A DNA stretch of 64,000 nt, taken from NCBI GenBank assembly GCA_033065855.1, contig JAVXUO010001228.1, positions 248,001 through 312,000 on the forward strand, read 5' to 3'. This DNA comes from Escallonia rubra. Its lineage: Eukaryota > Streptophyta > Magnoliopsida > Escalloniales > Escalloniaceae. The notes under the pieces were generated by a model that saw nothing but the letters and a program-made list of their open reading frames with translations, was not told the DNA's origin and searched no databases. Below are positions 25,800 through 38,000 of this stretch, in pieces. Position 1 is the first letter of the stretch. Every line of letters begins with the position of its first letter. Made by a program: the position numbers and the translations under genes.

Positions 25800-28700
25800 A
25801 TCAAGTAGACACTTTTGAAGTCCACCAATGTATTTCCCAGCAAAAACCTAACTCCCTTGTTTTTATTTTTCTCCTCCCTAATTTGGTTCTTGACCTCTAT
25901 TCTTGTTGACTTCTCACCAATCAGAACCGCGCACTGAAAAGGTTAAAAGTCGTAATCTGTAAGAAAAGCAAGAACTACCTCAGATCTTAGGCCTCTTTCT
26001 TTTAACGATTTTCCGAACTCATTAATGTCTAGAAGTGTCAGTAAACCAATCAAGAAACTGTCGTCATCAACTATGAGTGCACAAGGCTGCTTCTCTGCAA
26101 GCATCGACCCCACAGCTTCTGTTAGCAAAGTGCTCGTTAGGACAGTCACATATTGTGTTCTCATAGCCTGTGAAACAAGAATCCTCTTTGCCAACTCCTC
26201 TATGTCATCATCAGTACCATCTGCACAAAAAGAACTACCAATTTCAATGTGTTTCTAGTATATCATCATTAACCAGCAATTAGATAAGTAGATTAGAGCA
26301 CATTTGATTTACATGAAGATGCTTCACGTTGTTGAATATGGCTGTTTTCTTGTTTAAGTTTCTTAGAGTCCCCACCATCGCTTCTCCTTATTTGCCTTGA
26401 TGTAATCCACGAAGACAATCCCACGGCGCCTAGAAGTGGCAGTACTATCCGATAATCCTGTGTAAGCTCAAAGAGAAGCAGAACTGCAGTAAGAGGTACC
26501 TGACACACCCCAGCAAGAGTAGCAGCCATGCCAACCTGTGAAAGCAGCAGTCGCCATAATGTACTTCATTACATAGCAAATCCATAAAGAAGTCCAATGA
26601 CCAGCAAAGATGAAGAACAATTAGACTTACGACGGACAGCAAAAACATGGTGACAAGGAAATCACTATCCCGACTCGTTTTTCGTTAAACTATCTACTGA
26701 AGAAACTAACTCTAAAAGGCCATTCCTACTTTTGTCCCATTTCTGTAACTGAGTACGTACTTAATTTCAAACTCCAAGCTTCAGATGCAAACAATTCAAT
26801 ATTGCACCACGAACAGACCACATGAGGCCATTTGGGATTGATTCTGGAAAGTAGATATTTTATCAAATCATCAGTTCTCAAAATCAGCTTTAATCTATTT
26901 TAAGCATGATAATTAGAAGTTGTCGAAGGTGTCGGATAAGAAGTGCTGAAAGTAGGTTTAGTGTGGCAAAACGAACAAATAGTGTATTAAGATCTAAAGG
27001 GGGCATTTGATGTCTATTTATATGTTAGGATATTATAGTAATCCTTTTGATCAAACCTGATTCTCCAAAACTGATTAAATCAGAATCCAAGAAATTGAGG
27101 ATTCTGGATTTAATTAGTTTTAAGCATTTTGAAACAGATTCACTTCAATACTAGATTTGATTTGGATTTAATCAAGTACGACCATTCTAGAATCAATCCG
27201 AAATACCCTCTTACTATGTGTAAAAAAACCTGAACGACAAGATGCACTCAACGACTTGAGCTGCAGGAAAAATAAAGCAGCCCAACAGCATACGACTACA
27301 GGTTTAGGGATGTTTTTGAAAGGTTCAATGGACATAACCGTCCTTGAGAAAATGTAAAAAGATAGTTGCAAATTGACTGCATCTTTGATTCCATGGAGCA
27401 TATTTAAGAAAGTTTCTGTTGAAACAGACGATTAATACTAAGGTAGTATTATTAGCAGTCTCGATACAAGTTTGAGTCCAAGGCTGACTAGAAACCTCTG
27501 CGACGACAGGCGCATTTAATAGTGATGGGTCTGCAGAGACGATCCTTGAACCCTTAACCTAGTGAATGAGGGGGAGCAGGCCAAGGTATTATATCAGCCA
27601 GTCCCTGTCCGATTGATTGACCTTTTGTGGTAGCAAAGAGTGTGTTTATTGTTGTTAAAAATCTAGAAAAAAAGTTAGAACAAAACTGAGCAACTATTTC
27701 AACAAACGCTTCAGCATTATGTGTAACATGCAACGGCGTGCATCGGAAGAACATTAGTGTTTGAATCGCCATCTAATCGTTTGGTTAGTTATAATAATTT
27801 ACAAGAAAACTAAAAAACACAATTATTGATCCTAAATTCTAGTCCGCGTAGCAGTAAATTCGAATTCGGGCACTAAGTTATATGATGACAGGTGTTTGGC
27901 ACCCCCATCATATTAAAAGTCTCTACATGTTTAAGCTCATTCTCACACAAATCATAACTTATTTATCTAAACTGGTTTGAACTCAACAATCAAGGGTTTA
28001 GTGGCCTACGAACCCGATCGAACAAATCGGGATCAAAACCTTCGTAGTTCCAAACCCTAAGGAAGGAGACCTAAAGCCTAATCTTCAGCTTTATAAATGA
28101 AACTTAATGAAAACTGAAATCTGGAATTTAAAGATCTGACCTTTTTATCGTAAGTGTGCGAGTCTATACAAGTGTGTATATGAATATCCTAGCAAAATCA
28201 CTACAGCCACTCGGGAATATACTACTATATATTATGGAGAGACTAGGGGGTCTTGTATAGTTCTCTAGAGTCCTAGGGCTGAAGAAAAGCTGCAAAACGC
28301 AACCCTAAACCGCCAAAAAGGAAAATTCTAGAGTTCGAGAAAATGCTCAAACTACCTTTGCTGACCGATACACTTTAGCCACTGCAGTCATGCCGGTCGG
28401 TACGCACAAATACCAGCCTGTACACTTTTCCTTACAAAATTACCAATAAGCCCTTATTCTAGAACGAAAAATAGCCTACCTCGCATAAATGCGTGGACCA
28501 AACATTAGGAACCCAAAACCCAAATTAGAGGAGACCAGACTCACTGGACTGTGACTCGGGCTAAGTCCAATAAAAAAGGACTAAAAAGAAAAGACTGGAC
28601 AGGAATAAAGACCAAAACAACATATACAAAAAATCTGGGTATCTTCACAACAGCCTTGCTCGATTTACATGAATCTATACGCTGCCTGTTACAAGTGTAT

Positions 28701-28995
28701 TAGCAGCTGGTGCTTGATGATTAACTTATTCCGATACATCGAGATCATAAGCTGAGTCCCCAATAACAAAGCATACAGTGGGATGGAACTCTACGTGACT
28801 CATGAAGTACAATTTGCAGTTCACAACCAGATACCAAAACCACATCTCTGGTTGTCTCCATTCCCAACACAGTACCTAATAAACCCCTAACCTAGGTAGC
28901 ACGGACACCGTGTCCGACACCGACACCAACCGGGACACCGGACACCGCAATTTTCAAAAAATCAGATTTTGGACACCGCAGAACACCGCTGAATT

Positions 28996-29045
<50 letters not shown>

Positions 29046-32000
29046 TACACACATCTCAATTGGAGCAACTAAATTTTGTTCAAAATCGATGAGAAAGAAA
29101 GAAAGTACCATGAAATAGTCTCAACAGTAACAAGAAAAAGGGTTAATTACACTTATGTCCCTGAGGTTTAGGTGTAATTACAGTCAAGGACACAAAGTTT
29201 CAAAAGGTAACAAACCGTGTCCACAAACGTTAAAAAGATAACACTTATGTCCAGCCGTTAGGGATCCATCCAAAAAGTGTACTTTTTTGGTGATTTCATC
29301 AATATGTATTTTTAAAATGGCAATACTACCCCTATACTGAATAAATATATATATATATATCTCTCTCTCCCTCTCCCCCTCGACACAAGCATGCTCTGAT
29401 ACCAAATTAGGGCTCACCGTTCCTTTTCCGGTGTGCCGTGACTTTGGCCTGGCCCTTGGCGGTGCTGTCGGTGGGCGAATGAAGTTGACAACGCCTTTAC
29501 GGTGCGTCACGTCCACCACGGGTTCGGCGCCGCTGCAGCTGCCTTCTCCCGGGCCTCCTGCGGGACCAAGGACCAGAGGTGTTCGACGTTGACGACGGGG
29601 TAGTGGAACTTGTTGCAGAGGCGGTGGAAGTAGCCCATGCCGACCTTGCCGAAGTAGCCCAGATGGTTCTTGTCGAAGAGGATGCGGTGATGGTGCATAC
29701 CATCGGCGTTTTTCCGCCCGTCAGGATGCTTCAGACGAACGCCTAAATGGGTTTGCAGATTAAGAACATTTTGAAACCCTAATTTGTAGAGCATTTCAAA
29801 AAATTAAGAACCCTAATTTGCAGATTTAATTTTTAGATTTGCAGATTAATTTGCAAATTTGCAAATTTTGTAGAACATTTTGAATTTTAATTTACAGATT
29901 TAGAAAAATTAAGCTTGTGAACCCTAATTTGCAAATTTAGAAAAATTAAGGTTGGCAAATCAGGGATATCATTTTTAATTATGGGCAATAGGGTAATTTT
30001 AACCCTTCCGTTATGTCTTTGTGTATTCCGTTAGGTCCAAGGACATTAGTGCCTATTTTCTAAACTTATGGACACGAGTGTAATTACACCTAAACCTTAG
30101 GGACATAGGTGTAATTAACCCCAAGAAAAAAGGTCGGCAACAAGAAAGCAGTTGAATGTCTTAACAGTACCAAGATTAGAATCTCAACAATAACAAGGGA
30201 GAAGGAAAAAAAGACACGAGACCAAAGGCATGAAGGAAAGGTTTTATATAGTCAGATGGTCTGTAAATAAGGTCGGAGATGTTGACCTATCTTACTCTGG
30301 ACTGGCAAGCTTGGATGCTTTAGGCAACAAAAAGAAGAAAAATACAAAGAGATGAGAGAGAAAGAAAAAGGAACCTTTTGTTGGGTCGATTTGATTAGGG
30401 TTTGGCCTAAAAGTTTATTTCTAAAAAATCCCAGATTTATCCCTTGTATTTTGGCCCCATACGAGTGGACACTTCTTCATAAGGTGTCCGACACTACTTC
30501 AAGAGGTGTCCGACACTTCTTCATAAGGTGTCCGACACTACTTCAAGAGGTGTCCGACACGGTGTCCGGTAATTAATAAATTAATTAATTAATTCGGCCA
30601 CCGCTGAGAGGTGTCGGACACGTGTCCGGAGGTGTCGGTGAGGTGTCAAGGTGTCGGACAGCATACCTTGTCCTATAAGAGGTGTCCGTGCTTCCTAGCC
30701 CCTAACTATCTCCTAAAAGTGCTAATTATTCGTCATCATCATTGTCGTTAAGCTCTTTGTCCAAATCCATAACCCAATGACCTGAATCCCTGAAAGGAAA
30801 CTCATGATTAGAACACTTCTTACCACTGTTGTTGTGGGTTGGAGGGAGGCGCCCCGCGGGGCGGGGGGGGTGGGGGGTGGCGGGGTGGGGGTGTTGACCC
30901 TCCTAAGATTGCGCCTTTTGCTAGGTTGGCAGCCTTAGGTACCGTTCTTAACATTGATGAGAATGGAGCGTTCAAAGACTCGTGCAAATTGGTACTATTT
31001 TCGATATGTTAATGTTTGTACAATTTATTTTCTATATATGAATGTTTGGGTAATCAAGCCAAGAGACGTCATGGAGCTTCGAAGCTTGAGGCATGGAACT
31101 AAAGTTTGGATGTTGGACTCCCTGTGCCTTATGTAGACCATTTGGACTAGCAGCAAGGAACTATAGTTCGGACATTAAACTCTCTCGCTCTCTTGTTAGC
31201 ATGAATAGCTTCCCACTTTGCGCTTAAGATATAATCTCTTCTTAAGAGGTTGGCAAAGCAGGCTAATGTGATTTAAATTTGTCTAGTAATTTCAGCTAGG
31301 TTCAAGCACTTTTTAGTGAGCCTACTTCAATTGTAAAAATGCTATGCAAAAACTCTATTTCTAGCAACACTATAGCAGTCTAATATAAACATAGTTTTTT
31401 GCAATGCAATCTACAATTCGCAGTGAGCTATATTTGCTTTTAAATTTTTAGTACAACCGTCTAGTTTAGACGTTCAAATCCATCTAGTTTTTAGTGAGCC
31501 TCCTTCGATTTTTAGTGAACCATATTTCGTATTTGGCTCTGCACTATGGGCTTCACTCTATTTCATATTGATTGTGTTTGTGTAGAAAGCGTACATATAC
31601 TGATATACTTCATAGCCCTCACATAGAAAACCCGGTAACCACAACACTTGCATTTAAGACCTATGAGTTTACAATAGAAGACTCATATGGGAATATAAGC
31701 GTGAAATGGTAACTCGGGAACCACCATATATATATATAGACACGGATAGATAGGTTGATAGTTAAATAGGTAGATAGGGGACTGATACATATCTAATCTT
31801 GAAGAGATAAGGATCTCCAGAGCATCTTTCACCGTTGAAGAGTGCCACGCCGACAGATGGAAAGATCTCTCCCTTCTTTTAAAGTTTACGCATCAGAAGA
31901 TAAGAATAACGGATGGTACTGTTTTAAAGATTACGCCTGACTGTCGCCACTTTTTCATGCGGATGGTAGATGGACAACAGTCCTTCTCGTTCCTTCTCTA

Positions 32001-35000
32001 TCTTGTACCCAGGCTTCTTCTTTTTTTTTTGGGTATAAAGGGATTAAAATCTAGGAAGAAGTAGCTAACGAGCTCTTATACGGCAAGATGACGGCCTCCC
32101 GAATCCAACTCAAGAGAACTCTGGCGGAGAACTCGTTGATTTGCTAGCCTTGGCTAGTAAGTCAGCGCAAGTATTAATCTCTAGCCAAACAAATGACATG
32201 CAACACTCCATGGTTTATCCAAGAACGCATGAATGTGAGACAAAATGTTACCATCAGGGTCGAGCTCGGAGTTTTCCGAAATAGCTGCCAAAGCTTCCAA
32301 AGCATCCGATTCTACAACAACCTTACGGAATCTGCGTGTCCAAGCAACTCTAATCCACGCCAAATTGCCCATAATTCAGCTTGCCTACTATTTGTAGCTC
32401 CCAGCTTTTGCATAAACCCAAATATCCAATTGCCACAGTGATCACGACATAAACCTGCCGCCCCTTGTAAGCCTGCATTAGTTTGAGCAGCCTCATCAAC
32501 ATTTATCTTTACCCACCCTATGTTGGTGGACTCCAGTTAAATAAATAGGGAGCTTGTCCACCTTTCCCTAGTACTTGTGATTGAAAGCTGAAGTTCTCCC
32601 GATCACATTGCAAAATAATCTTCTATGTTAAATTTGGCGGGATAGTAGCTGTTCGCCCATTAGCAATCATGTTTCGCCAATACCAAATGGCGTGCATGAC
32701 TTCAAATATAAGAAAGACCACTCAGCCCATGCTATTGATGCTATTTCGCTGTATTGAAGGTTCAGATCAACCCATTCTTCCAGAATCAGTTTTAAAAAGG
32801 TGGCCCAATTACTAGGCTTGACCAAAGTTCTAGACAGTTCCTTCATATGAGCACAATATCTAAAGGCATGCAGTGTGGACTCAGAAGATAAAGTGCATAT
32901 GGGATAGTTATCATCATTAGCAATCCAACATTTTGCTTTCAACTCATTTGTAAGAATTCGGTTGTGCTGAACCAGCCAAGCCAATGTTTAACTCTAGGGT
33001 CGGCTGAAGAAGATCACAGTCGTTTTCAACCTATAGTCTCACCATTATTTAAGGTCTGGGTTACTATGTTATGAGCCGAACGGATGGAGAATTGCCATAA
33101 GAGGATGGCTTCCAAGCAACTCTATCAACATTACTTTCCTCGACACATAATATTATTGAACACAAAAGAGTTTCGATCGTACCTGGGAGATATTGTCGCA
33201 AAAAGTCCCAATTCCAGTCACAAAGATCCTCCAGTCAATAGTGCCGAACACTTTTAGTAAGCTGCTCAACGGGGACCTCAGCGGTGGCTGATTCGAGGAA
33301 AGGTTTCTCGGATACCCATGAGTCACACCAGAACTTTAACCACACACCATTGCCGTTCTTCCATCCTACCCCTTTTCTAAGCACCTCCACCCCATTTAAA
33401 ATGCTGCATTAGGTATATGAAGCACCTGCATTAGATAGATTCCAAAGACTCTTTCCATTCTTCAGATATTTAGCATAGAGAACCTAAGACCAAAGTGTAT
33501 CATTTTAGTTTAGAACACGCCCACCCAGTTTGGCCGACAAGGCACTATTCACATTGGCCATTTTACAAAAACCCAAACCATCTTCCCTTTTGTTCTGACA
33601 AACAAATGTCCTATTTTACAAGATGCAGCTTACCTTTATTTGGGTTCCGCCCCATAGAAACCGTTTGTTGCATCGATATAGCTTTACAGATGCTTCTAGG
33701 TATCTTGGTAGTCTGCATTAAATAGAGGGATGGTTGAAGTGACGGATCGTATAAGCGTCACTCTGCCCGCCAACAATAAGCATGATGCTTTCCAACCCAA
33801 TAGATGTTTCTGAACTTTTTCAAGTAGTTGTACGCGTCTTTTCGCACACTTCATGTAACAGCGGCACGCCAACATATTGGCCAAGATTGCAAGTGTGAGT
33901 TGGCCCGCACTGTACGGTGTGGGATGTTGGGTGAAATGTAAAGCTTAGATTTATTGAGATTGACATTTTGACCCGATGCTTCACAAAATATGTCCATAAC
34001 TTCCCTGATGACTAAGGCTTGCTCGGCAGAGGCCTCTACAAAATTTAACAGGTCGTCGGCGAAGAATAAATGAGAGATCGCTGGACCACCTCTTGCTGCC
34101 TTAGTAGGTTTCCAGTCATTCCTTGAGACACTTGCATTTATCAAATGCGTGAGCCGTTCCATACTTAACTCACAGAAGTATGGCGATAAAGGGTCACCCT
34201 GACGCAGGCCATGGTCGGAGTAAATGATTCAGTCGCTTGCCATTCCATAACAAAGAGAAATAGTTTGAGGTGGGGCAATGCATAATGAGAGAGATCCAAC
34301 TTTGAGGCAGTCCCATTGCTATTAGCGTGTCTTCCAAAAACCTCCAAGAAAAAGAGAGAAATCTAAATATCCCTTTGTAACCGTATAGTGCCACGGTGGC
34401 AAAATAGCGAAGCATGTAGTTTCGGGCTGCCATGGAGACAAACCAAGATTTAACTTACCAGAGAGTGGCTGCCAGTGTTCTCTTATCACCAGAGATGGCA
34501 GATTTCACCGAGGCCATCACCTCTTGGCCACCGGGAGCGTCTCTTGACGTGGGAACAGCCACGATATTTCTGGATTAAAGAGAGACGTTGAAGGAGAGAG
34601 GGATTTCTCTCTCTATCATTCACCAAAAAGAGGGGCAGATGGTTCTCAATAAACTTTTTACTTGTGCGGAAAAAGCCCCATCCACTGAAAAGATGAGGAT
34701 GTGGGAAAATAAAAAGAAAAGGACCGGATATGGCCATCCATGTGGGGCGCTTCGAGAGCAAAAGATGTGTTTCAGAGATCCTTATTTTGTATCGCGCGTA
34801 GACAGATTAAATTGAAATCAAATTTAAAATAGAAGATCAAGATTTATACCAGGCCATATGCTTGCGGCGATGCAACCTCCAAGAAGGACAGATTAAAATT
34901 TGGACTGGACTGAGTAATCGCAAGACTAACAAATTTCCCATATGCCATTCCTGTAGCTGCACCAATAAAGAGAGATGGAGCATAGTAGCCTCCCACTAAT

Positions 35001-38000
35001 CCAGAGGCCCGGCATAAGGAAGTTGCCACTATCTTGACTGCCACCAGCTGGAGCAATAGATCAGCAGGGAGGCTTTTCACAAATGGCCGAGATTCTAACA
35101 ATATGTCGACATTCTCAAAACCCCAGTATAGAATTTCAGGATAAGCCAAGGCCATGAGCCCAACAGCCATGCCACCCAATAGAGGGAGAGCCGCTTGTGG
35201 CACTCTGAGGGTCTTCTGTAAATTGTCAATGGTTACTCTCATAAATGATGTGCACCACGAAAAGGTTAATGAAACCAGACCACAGAGGATTCCCAGCAAA
35301 AGATACAACGGGAGTTCTGAAATAAGCAAAAAAGATTGAACAAAACAAAGCTTACCTCACAGATGGAAGCTTATGGTACATAACGATGATTATCTTGAAT
35401 AATACCAATAGCAAGAAATCTCAAAACATTGATAACCAAATCTCCTATCAAGCAAGCAGTCATAGAGTCATTCTCACTGTGAAGTCCAGAATGGGAGTCA
35501 AAAGACGATGCAAAGGCAGAATGTGTAATAGTTGTAGGTGATAAGTCACGGAGGCAGTTGTCAGTGGCTTGGTAAAATGTTCGAAAAATGACCTAGGTGC
35601 TTGATATCAGATTTCCCAAGGAACGACTTAAAGCCATTGTCCCGATGTCCAAATGGTAAAGAAATACTCATAAACAAACATCTGCATAATTTAGGGACTC
35701 AAAGTCAATAGCACTTATGGACTAAGTGACTGATGAACATCGCAAAATTGCTTGACCATCAGTTTCTGAATGAGATCAAACTTTAAGTGTGCCTAATTAG
35801 ATGTAGCTTACATTATGAAAGTCCATTGCATAGAAGGCGAGTAGGGGTTGTAGTCCCAAACATCAACATGTGTGCTTTTGTGTGTGTTTGAGCATGTTAG
35901 TTACACGGAGTAGGTTTCATCGCTAGAGAAAAGGGGTATGCCACCGCATCCTTGCTACCAAATGAACGTCCAATTTGAGACATGGAAGACCTTTTTACTG
36001 CAGAAGACAGCTTGACCAACACGTGCTTCCTCAAAGGTAAAGAGGATTACCATTAAAATTGCTACCGAGGACCACGAAAAACATTTTTCTATCAAGTACC
36101 ATGAAAGCTAACAAACGCACCAAATGGAGGACACTTGAGCATGAACTGAATACATCTCAACAACGGTTCCCAACTGCTCTACACAACTTCGAACACGAAA
36201 CAACACAGATAGCAAAAAGCATAAAGAAGCTATGAGGTTTAATGCCAAAGGAAGAGAAGGTGACTATGAACGTTTTTCCTTCGAGGGTGCGGTTGTTGCT
36301 GTAAATAAAGAAGTCGTGATAGGCAAGTTACCACTTGGCGAACGAAAATCATAGTCTGGCACTGTAAAGGCAGGTTCAGACCCCAAACCAATTTCTGAAA
36401 TTACAGAAGCTATTACAGCACTAAGAATGACCATTGAAGTTGCATTCGTCGGTGATAAGGACGAATCTGCTGGGGATGGCCATAAGACAGACTCTACGGC
36501 GAAAAAACAACCTGCGACAGCAGCATTGAACCCTGTAAAGCAGAAAAATAACAATTGTATTACAGAAGTAACTTGAAATACGTACACGGTGATGTACAAT
36601 TTAGTATAGTAATTTTTTTCTAAACTAAGCTATTGCAAGGAACAAATCTAACGTGCAACAATAAAAGCGCAGGCCATTTTCCTTCTTCAAATGTGGACGA
36701 AGCCAGCATCATGTAAAATTTGATATTTTAATATCCCACACCAGAAGTGCAAGAGTCCAAGATTGGCCATAAAAGACTTTGCCAAGGAACTCAAGAGTAC
36801 CTACCTGGTAGCCCTTTCGAGGGAGGCGATGACCTGTGGCCAAAAATCTGGGGCATTGGACAAAATGTCTTCAAGAGAGAGAAAAAAAAAAGGATAAATG
36901 ATCCGAAAAAGTTTTTCCTGTAATGCAACTTGCAACACTTTCATCAAATTTGGACAATTCTTTTTCATCAAATTGGGGCTGAAATTGGGAACATAACTAT
37001 AACGTAAAAAGTTGCAAACATGTTTAATTCATTAATCAACTTGGTGATTGCTTCTAAGACTTAGGATTACAAAAAAGAGGTAGAAAAACGGAGCAGATCA
37101 TATGCGTGCGCATGTAATTTGACAAATTATACAAGTACCAACCAGAAGAGATTCCCGCAGCTGATCCTGCAGCCCTAAGGGAGAGCTCTCTCTGAGCACC
37201 CCTATCGAAGATTGTACCTACACCCTTGGCTATGGATGCACCAATCTCAACACTTGGACCTTCAGGACCCAATGAATTCCCCGTTCCAAGGGTGACACAA
37301 GCAGCGATCGTCTTCAAAACTGATTCCAGTGCAACCTTGGCATTAAATGTATAAGTTCCTTCTGTAGGAACCTCTAGAGCATCTCGAAGCATGTTCAAAA
37401 GGCCAACAGCCAACCCTCCGCAAGCTGGTACCAGGATTACTCGCCCCCATATCACCTCAACAGGCCCCTCTCTTAACCACGAGGCACCTCGATAAGGGAT
37501 CCCATCCCAGCAGAGGTCACGTATTTCGTGAACCTAATAAACATTAGGACTATATATCAGCACCTGCATGCAAGAAACTGAGTCGAACACTGAGAAACTA
37601 AGGTGAATGCCAAATATACGGAGAGAAACCCGTGCACTCATTTATTCAAATCATGATTGATTTATATTATCTTACAAAGCCAAAGAAGGGTTCCCTTTAG
37701 GAATGTCACGATGGTAAACATGATTCAAGTATTTATTCAAGTTTGCTTAAATGGTAGGTACAAGGGTGCTTTGTATAGAACACCAAAAGTAATGCCCAAG
37801 TAATATGTGTGGGGAGCAAGCAAGCTAATGAGTGTGTTGGAGAAGATACAAGAGGTGCGATGAGGAGTATATACGATTTACATCAACACCCCCCCCCCCC
37901 CCCCAAACAAATTCGAGGTGGTGAATAGGAAGCCAACTTGAGTTTGAAAGTTATGTCTTGATGCCATGTTTGCAGTTAAAGTAGACCAAAATTTAGTTCT

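Follow-up and report, generated by a model that had tools for sequence, protein, structure and literature searches.

A 982-bp non-autonomous Mutator-like element at positions 29140-30121 of the window (the whole stretch of Escallonia rubra DNA that we analyzed, 64,000 nucleotides) is very probably a Pack-MULE of chimeric origin, in which a single capture of a piece of the ribosomal protein gene RPL27a by elements with one type of ends (family B) was followed by placement of the family B cargo block between ends of another type (type C). Judged from the comparison of its copies, the fragment appears to have been captured once and then passed between MULE families, once or possibly more often, and the capture was probably not made by the end type that bounds the copy in the window.

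The element in the CLC intron and its likely donor gene

A sequence-only reading of this DNA had placed here inverted repeats of about 43 bp and a perfect 9-bp target duplication. The duplication is indeed identical on the two sides, and the repeats come close to the estimate, the arms measuring 46 nt, with weaker similarity beyond them that reaches 66 nt at 82%. The features of the element and of its immediate host are as follows:

28884-28891 and 30699-30706: exact 8-bp duplication CCCCTAAC of the outer element
28892-30698: outer element with terminal inverted repeats (18-nt ends CTAGGTAGCACGGACACC, 94%), hosting the Pack-MULE
29131-29139: left target site duplication CAAGAAAAA, exact 9 bp
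29140-29185, plus strand: left terminal inverted repeat arm (46 nt), which matches the right arm at 93%
29140-29353, plus strand: C-type left end, 98% to L045-L048 of family C
29360-29942: cargo block common to family B, inverted with respect to the homologous ends
29503-29731, minus strand: captured RPL27a (uL15) fragment, CDS nucleotides 79-308 of 441, lacking one base at about 29535/29536
29752-29942: A+T-rich direct repeats (AACCCTAATTTGCA...), part of the cargo block
29952-30121, minus strand: C-type right end, 98-99% to L045-L048 of family C
30076-30121, minus strand: right terminal inverted repeat arm, 46 nt
30122-30130: right target site duplication CAAGAAAAA, exact 9 bp

When the 64-kb window was scanned for exact 13-nt inverted pairs with a spacing of 300-5000 nt and an exact 9-nt duplication at their flanks, 29140-30121 was the sole case recovered, and the same criterion returned none in 20 first-order Markov controls. 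The GC content of the gene fragment is 61.6% vs 35.9% in the ends. Five stop-to-stop frames of at least 70 aa lie in the element, all overlapping the RPL27a part, a length of 982 bp leaving little room for a transposase gene; a Pfam search with one of the five, the RPL27a frame, found no family, and in the intact gene the RPL27a family PF00828 spans only residues 72-143. A primer-binding-site-like string in the cargo (GCTCTGATACCA), considered as a sign of an LTR remnant, was dropped; the D element examined lacks it in that form.

The frame 29507-29803 matches plant RPL27a/uL15 chains with an E-value of about 1e-30 and contains the GYFGKVGM motif by which the minus-strand RPL27a segment had been recognized. 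The limits given for that segment, 29490-29735, do enclose the match, the measured extent of which is 29503-29731. In the genome that was searched (566 Mb in 3222 contigs), a Pfam search with PF00828 gave two full matches and one partial one. The closest donor is an intact RPL27a gene (L009 on contig C3181) with a single uninterrupted 147-codon frame, which is 91.3% identical in DNA to element positions 364-592; the runner-up is a second intact gene (L012, contig C1843) at 81.7% to the fragment, followed by a third locus (L013, contig C1676) at 75.6%, in which a motif scan showed no intact frame. Alignment with this donor bears out both the frameshift claimed earlier, a 1-nt deletion relative to the gene that is common to other copies, and the loss of both ends of the protein. 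The check for copied intron sequence proposed at the same time cannot tell a DNA from an RNA copying route because the donor CDS is intronless. Beyond 29503-29731, the rest of the 6-kb donor locus found no further match in the whole window, nor did the L012 locus match anything further there; RPL27a similarity is thus confined within the inverted ends.

The surrounding minus-strand gene encodes a CLC channel (Voltage_CLC in four tested frames, CBS in a fifth), and the Pack-MULE lies in its intron between the CLC frames 34844-35356 and 26293-26565. The RPL27a segment, likewise on the minus strand, runs in the same direction as this gene, in agreement with the sequence-only reading. Under the criterion applied, the outer element is the sole such case in the window (0/10 controls), and its 8-bp duplication is of the length typical of hAT elements. 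The same CLC intron also holds RVT_1 and RVT_3 pieces on the minus strand at 32312-34228, probably of a LINE-like element.

Copies of the fragment and relatives of its carriers

We found the RPL27a fragment at 30 examined loci between two types of ends, namely family A (n=11, window copy included) and family B (n=19); these counts are lower bounds, as the genome searches score the best candidates only. Exact 9-bp duplications flank 10 of the 11 A loci and 14 of the 19 B loci (24/30 together), and three further B loci have a duplication of 8 or 9 bp with one mismatch; the search at the flanks found none in one A and two B loci. Distinct exact duplications number 22 among the 30 loci, which marks the element as mobile in the manner expected of a Pack-MULE, and the segment accordingly recurs elsewhere between similar inverted repeats with 9-bp duplications of its own, as the sequence-only reading had required. 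The same duplication is found within the pair L038/L039 and within the pair L010/L011. Each pair may be one insertion on duplicate contigs, leaving 28 insertions; the shared element and duplication suggest that the assembly contains duplicated haplotypes or a segmental duplication.

The match to the gene begins at CDS nucleotide 79 in 29/30 loci and stops at 308 in 26/30 (L019, L025 and L040 are a few nucleotides short; L034 and L044 are interrupted), and the junction letters are identical in the copies read out. Two family A copies are rearranged: L043 has part of the right half repeated and shows no target site duplication, and in L044 the RPL27a part is interrupted by about 1.26 kb of other sequence.

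C-type ends are also found on three elements of 4952, 5122 and 5138 bp (L072, L078 and L079, respectively), 95-98% to the window element, whose target site duplications are exact in the first and have one mismatch each in the other two. Among the selected frames that were run, all three have the MULE domain PF10551, L072 and L079 have DBD_Tnp_Mut PF03108, and a SWIM domain occurs in L072 and, just above the cut-off, in L079; a GRF zinc finger occurs in a second frame of L078. The name Pack-MULE is right because MuDR-type transposase domains are present in these three 5-kb elements, which have the end type of the window copy, and the ends, target duplications, copies, gene match and coding relatives all agree with the earlier identification of a Pack-MULE carrying a captured RPL27a fragment. 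The putative transposase of the 5-kb elements would, given the shared ends, be what moves family A.

Other MULEs with B-like ends carry different interiors. One of them (L017, contig C907; element 981-2341) has a frame with the E3_binding domain PF02817 (E 3e-10), presumably a dihydrolipoamide acyltransferase gene fragment, and is likely another Pack-MULE cargo in related ends. Four further copies (L016, L018, L059 and L060) form a group with interiors that are 96-98% alike. Among other interiors, neither two frames of cargo C2 (L050) nor a single frame of D1 (L018) had a Pfam match.

Conflict between ends and cargo

By its ends, family A belongs with family C: the left ends of A are on average 97.2% identical to those of C (121 pairs) vs 81.5% to those of B (209 pairs), the left ends of B and C being 82.2% identical to each other. 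The ends of the window element (element positions 1-214 and 813-982) are 95-100% identical to those of the family C copies examined, with the exception of the right end of L056 (79%, with a gap). The family C interiors examined gave no RPL27a match and hold cargo C1, cargo C2 or transposase. In the tree of the ends, the bootstrap of which is not fully settled, A and C lie on one side of a 100/100 branch, and the test rejects a grouping of A and B (p-AU 5e-5). The cargo of A (element positions 221-803), by contrast, is the interior of B, and it stands in opposite orientation to the homologous left end in 11/11 A compared with 19/19 B. In the cargo tree, built from a block with few informative sites (27 rows; L010, L011 and L044, below the required length, were left out), a 100/100 branch splits 10 A and 10 B rows from seven other B rows. 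The 1-nt deletion is present in 11/11 A and 10/19 B loci; the base is retained in eight B loci and in the gene, and L034, a B locus, is unreadable there. The gene polarizes this frameshift, and therefore the A cargo is placed inside B, with the direction running from B to A. Family B includes the oldest copies of the RPL27a fragment.

The history that we propose begins, as the shared breakpoints show, with one capture of a 230-nt piece of the intronless RPL27a gene in a MULE lineage with B-type ends, which multiplied. The conflicting trees and the polarized frameshift show that, after the base had been lost, a B block of about 580 bp entered type C ends in inverted orientation. As the distinct target duplications show, the resulting chimera, family A, came to occupy at least nine other places, eight of them with an exact 9-bp duplication; it would be moved in trans by the MuDR-like transposase of the 5-kb elements with C-type ends. 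The junctions sit inside the ends, among simple repeats and short matches, which makes template switching or gap repair the most likely mode of transfer, a B element having served as template within a C element.

Three versions of the right junction occur in the 11 A copies. More of the C side is retained in the window copy and L043 and more of the B side in seven others; L038/L039 differ from both. In the cargo tree, the nine A rows other than the window copy lie together on one side (75/87), and a single A cargo clade including the window copy is marginally rejected (p-AU 0.042) because that copy stands apart from the other nine rows. These observations would fit two or more separate transfers, with the window copy, and perhaps L043, stemming from a different one than the rest. 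Against this, the 10 aligned A copies resemble one another at the left junction, the support is low, and such a pattern could also arise by gene conversion or by slippage in the repeats; we therefore regard separate transfers as possible but somewhat unlikely. The wider proposal, that MULE families repeatedly pass on host-gene cargo and that the RPL27a block moved from B to C-type ends at least twice, the window copy separately, is likewise put forward only tentatively; were it true, capture by MULEs would often be second-hand, and the distribution of a fragment would be uncoupled from the element family that first captured it.

An exchange of B and C ends by ordinary homologous recombination between related ends, in place of template switching, could draw on the 82.2% average identity of the left ends and on the capacity of element ends to recombine. 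However, a crossover would preserve the orientation of the cargo, which is opposite in all A vs all B examined, and the junctions are located inside the ends, at (AT)n/(CT)n tracts and short matches. We accordingly consider such an exchange improbable, and template switching or gap repair remains the preferred route.

The fate of the fragment after its capture can be judged from its coding sequence. Relative to the donor, the pooled pN/pS is 0.95 in A (single copies 0.64-1.55) and 0.65 in B (0.29-1.33), a value that includes change in the gene itself; for comparison, the second intact gene gives 0.17 and the L013 locus 0.52. Low values of 0.29-0.48 occur in some B copies (L033, L029, L032 and L031), and there may have been early coding constraint in family B. 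Neither the open frame nor the constraint expected of a functional gene was found, in view of the shared frameshift and the pooled value of 0.95 in A, and a protein from the window copy is argued against by this frameshift and a pN/pS near 1. The piece might nonetheless still work, whether spliced into the CLC transcript as an exon, present as sense RNA, or giving rise to small RNA that acts on RPL27a: it lies in sense direction in the intron of a same-strand gene, the inverted ends could form a hairpin, and the low pN/pS of some B copies could be read in the same way. Set against these points, the frame is broken by the deletion, the pooled values of both families exceed the 0.17 between the two intact genes, the RPL27a part would fall in the loop of the hairpin, outside its arms, and the element is nested in another transposon, so that we think a working piece very improbable. 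The frameshift and pN/pS suggest that in the window copy the RPL27a piece is most likely a dead passenger.

Ordinary direct capture, with one acquisition from the RPL27a gene by the end type of the window copy and an independent one by the B type, is the usual reading of a Pack-MULE and would suit the 91.3% match to the gene, yet it is hardly credible here, since independent captures would not share the roughly 350 bp of non-RPL27a flanking sequence (both sides) common to A and most B loci, the identical breakpoints, and the 1-nt deletion that A and 10 B loci have and the gene lacks.

Comparison with known systems

How MULEs acquire gene pieces is still unsettled, and here one genome contains the likely donor, the family that first carried its piece, the end type that received it and a coding relative. 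A polarized two-step case of this kind allows template-switching and end-exchange models to be compared on real junctions, and it warns that captures can be overcounted if their number is taken from the end families in which a gene fragment occurs. A survey of the open literature by title and start of abstract gave nothing pointing to an RPL27a Pack-MULE, which does not establish novelty.

Like the Pack-MULEs of rice, maize, tomato and Arabidopsis, family A is non-autonomous and multicopy, with inverted ends, a 9-bp duplication (about 8-11 bp being usual for the class), a GC-rich gene fragment and no sign of constraint on the cargo; traits of this sort are described in PMC8277862 and PMC4858842. 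Unlike in the usual Pack-MULEs, the same cargo here occurs in two end types and in opposite orientation, and for this reason the second end type apparently obtained it from another MULE. In maize Mu elements, one end type of about 220 bp is common to elements with unrelated interiors, much as the C-type ends here enclose the RPL27a block in some elements and C1, C2 or a transposase in others; no cargo common to different end types is described in the accessible part of that account (PMC3276141). The tomato PM-ZIBP family has 14 copies of a Pack-MULE with one gene fragment in two end arrangements, the extra ends being tandem copies of one TIR family (PMC3310237), whereas the ends here come from another subfamily and the cargo is flipped.

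Mosaic elements as such have precedents: rice MULE genes assembled from several parental sequences are reported in PMC4858842, and hybrid Pack-type elements in a gene-capture review, the available extract of which describes no hand-over of cargo between MULE families (PMC13317346). The FoSTeST model, in which template switching into a TIR element is followed by transposition, fits the transfer proposed here; it and the multicopy Pack-TIRs concern animal elements and direct capture, and its authors regard its use for plant Pack-MULEs as still to be explored (PMC8277862). Set beside these systems, the Pack-MULE in the CLC intron is a known kind of element, the two-step history of whose cargo is unusually clear.
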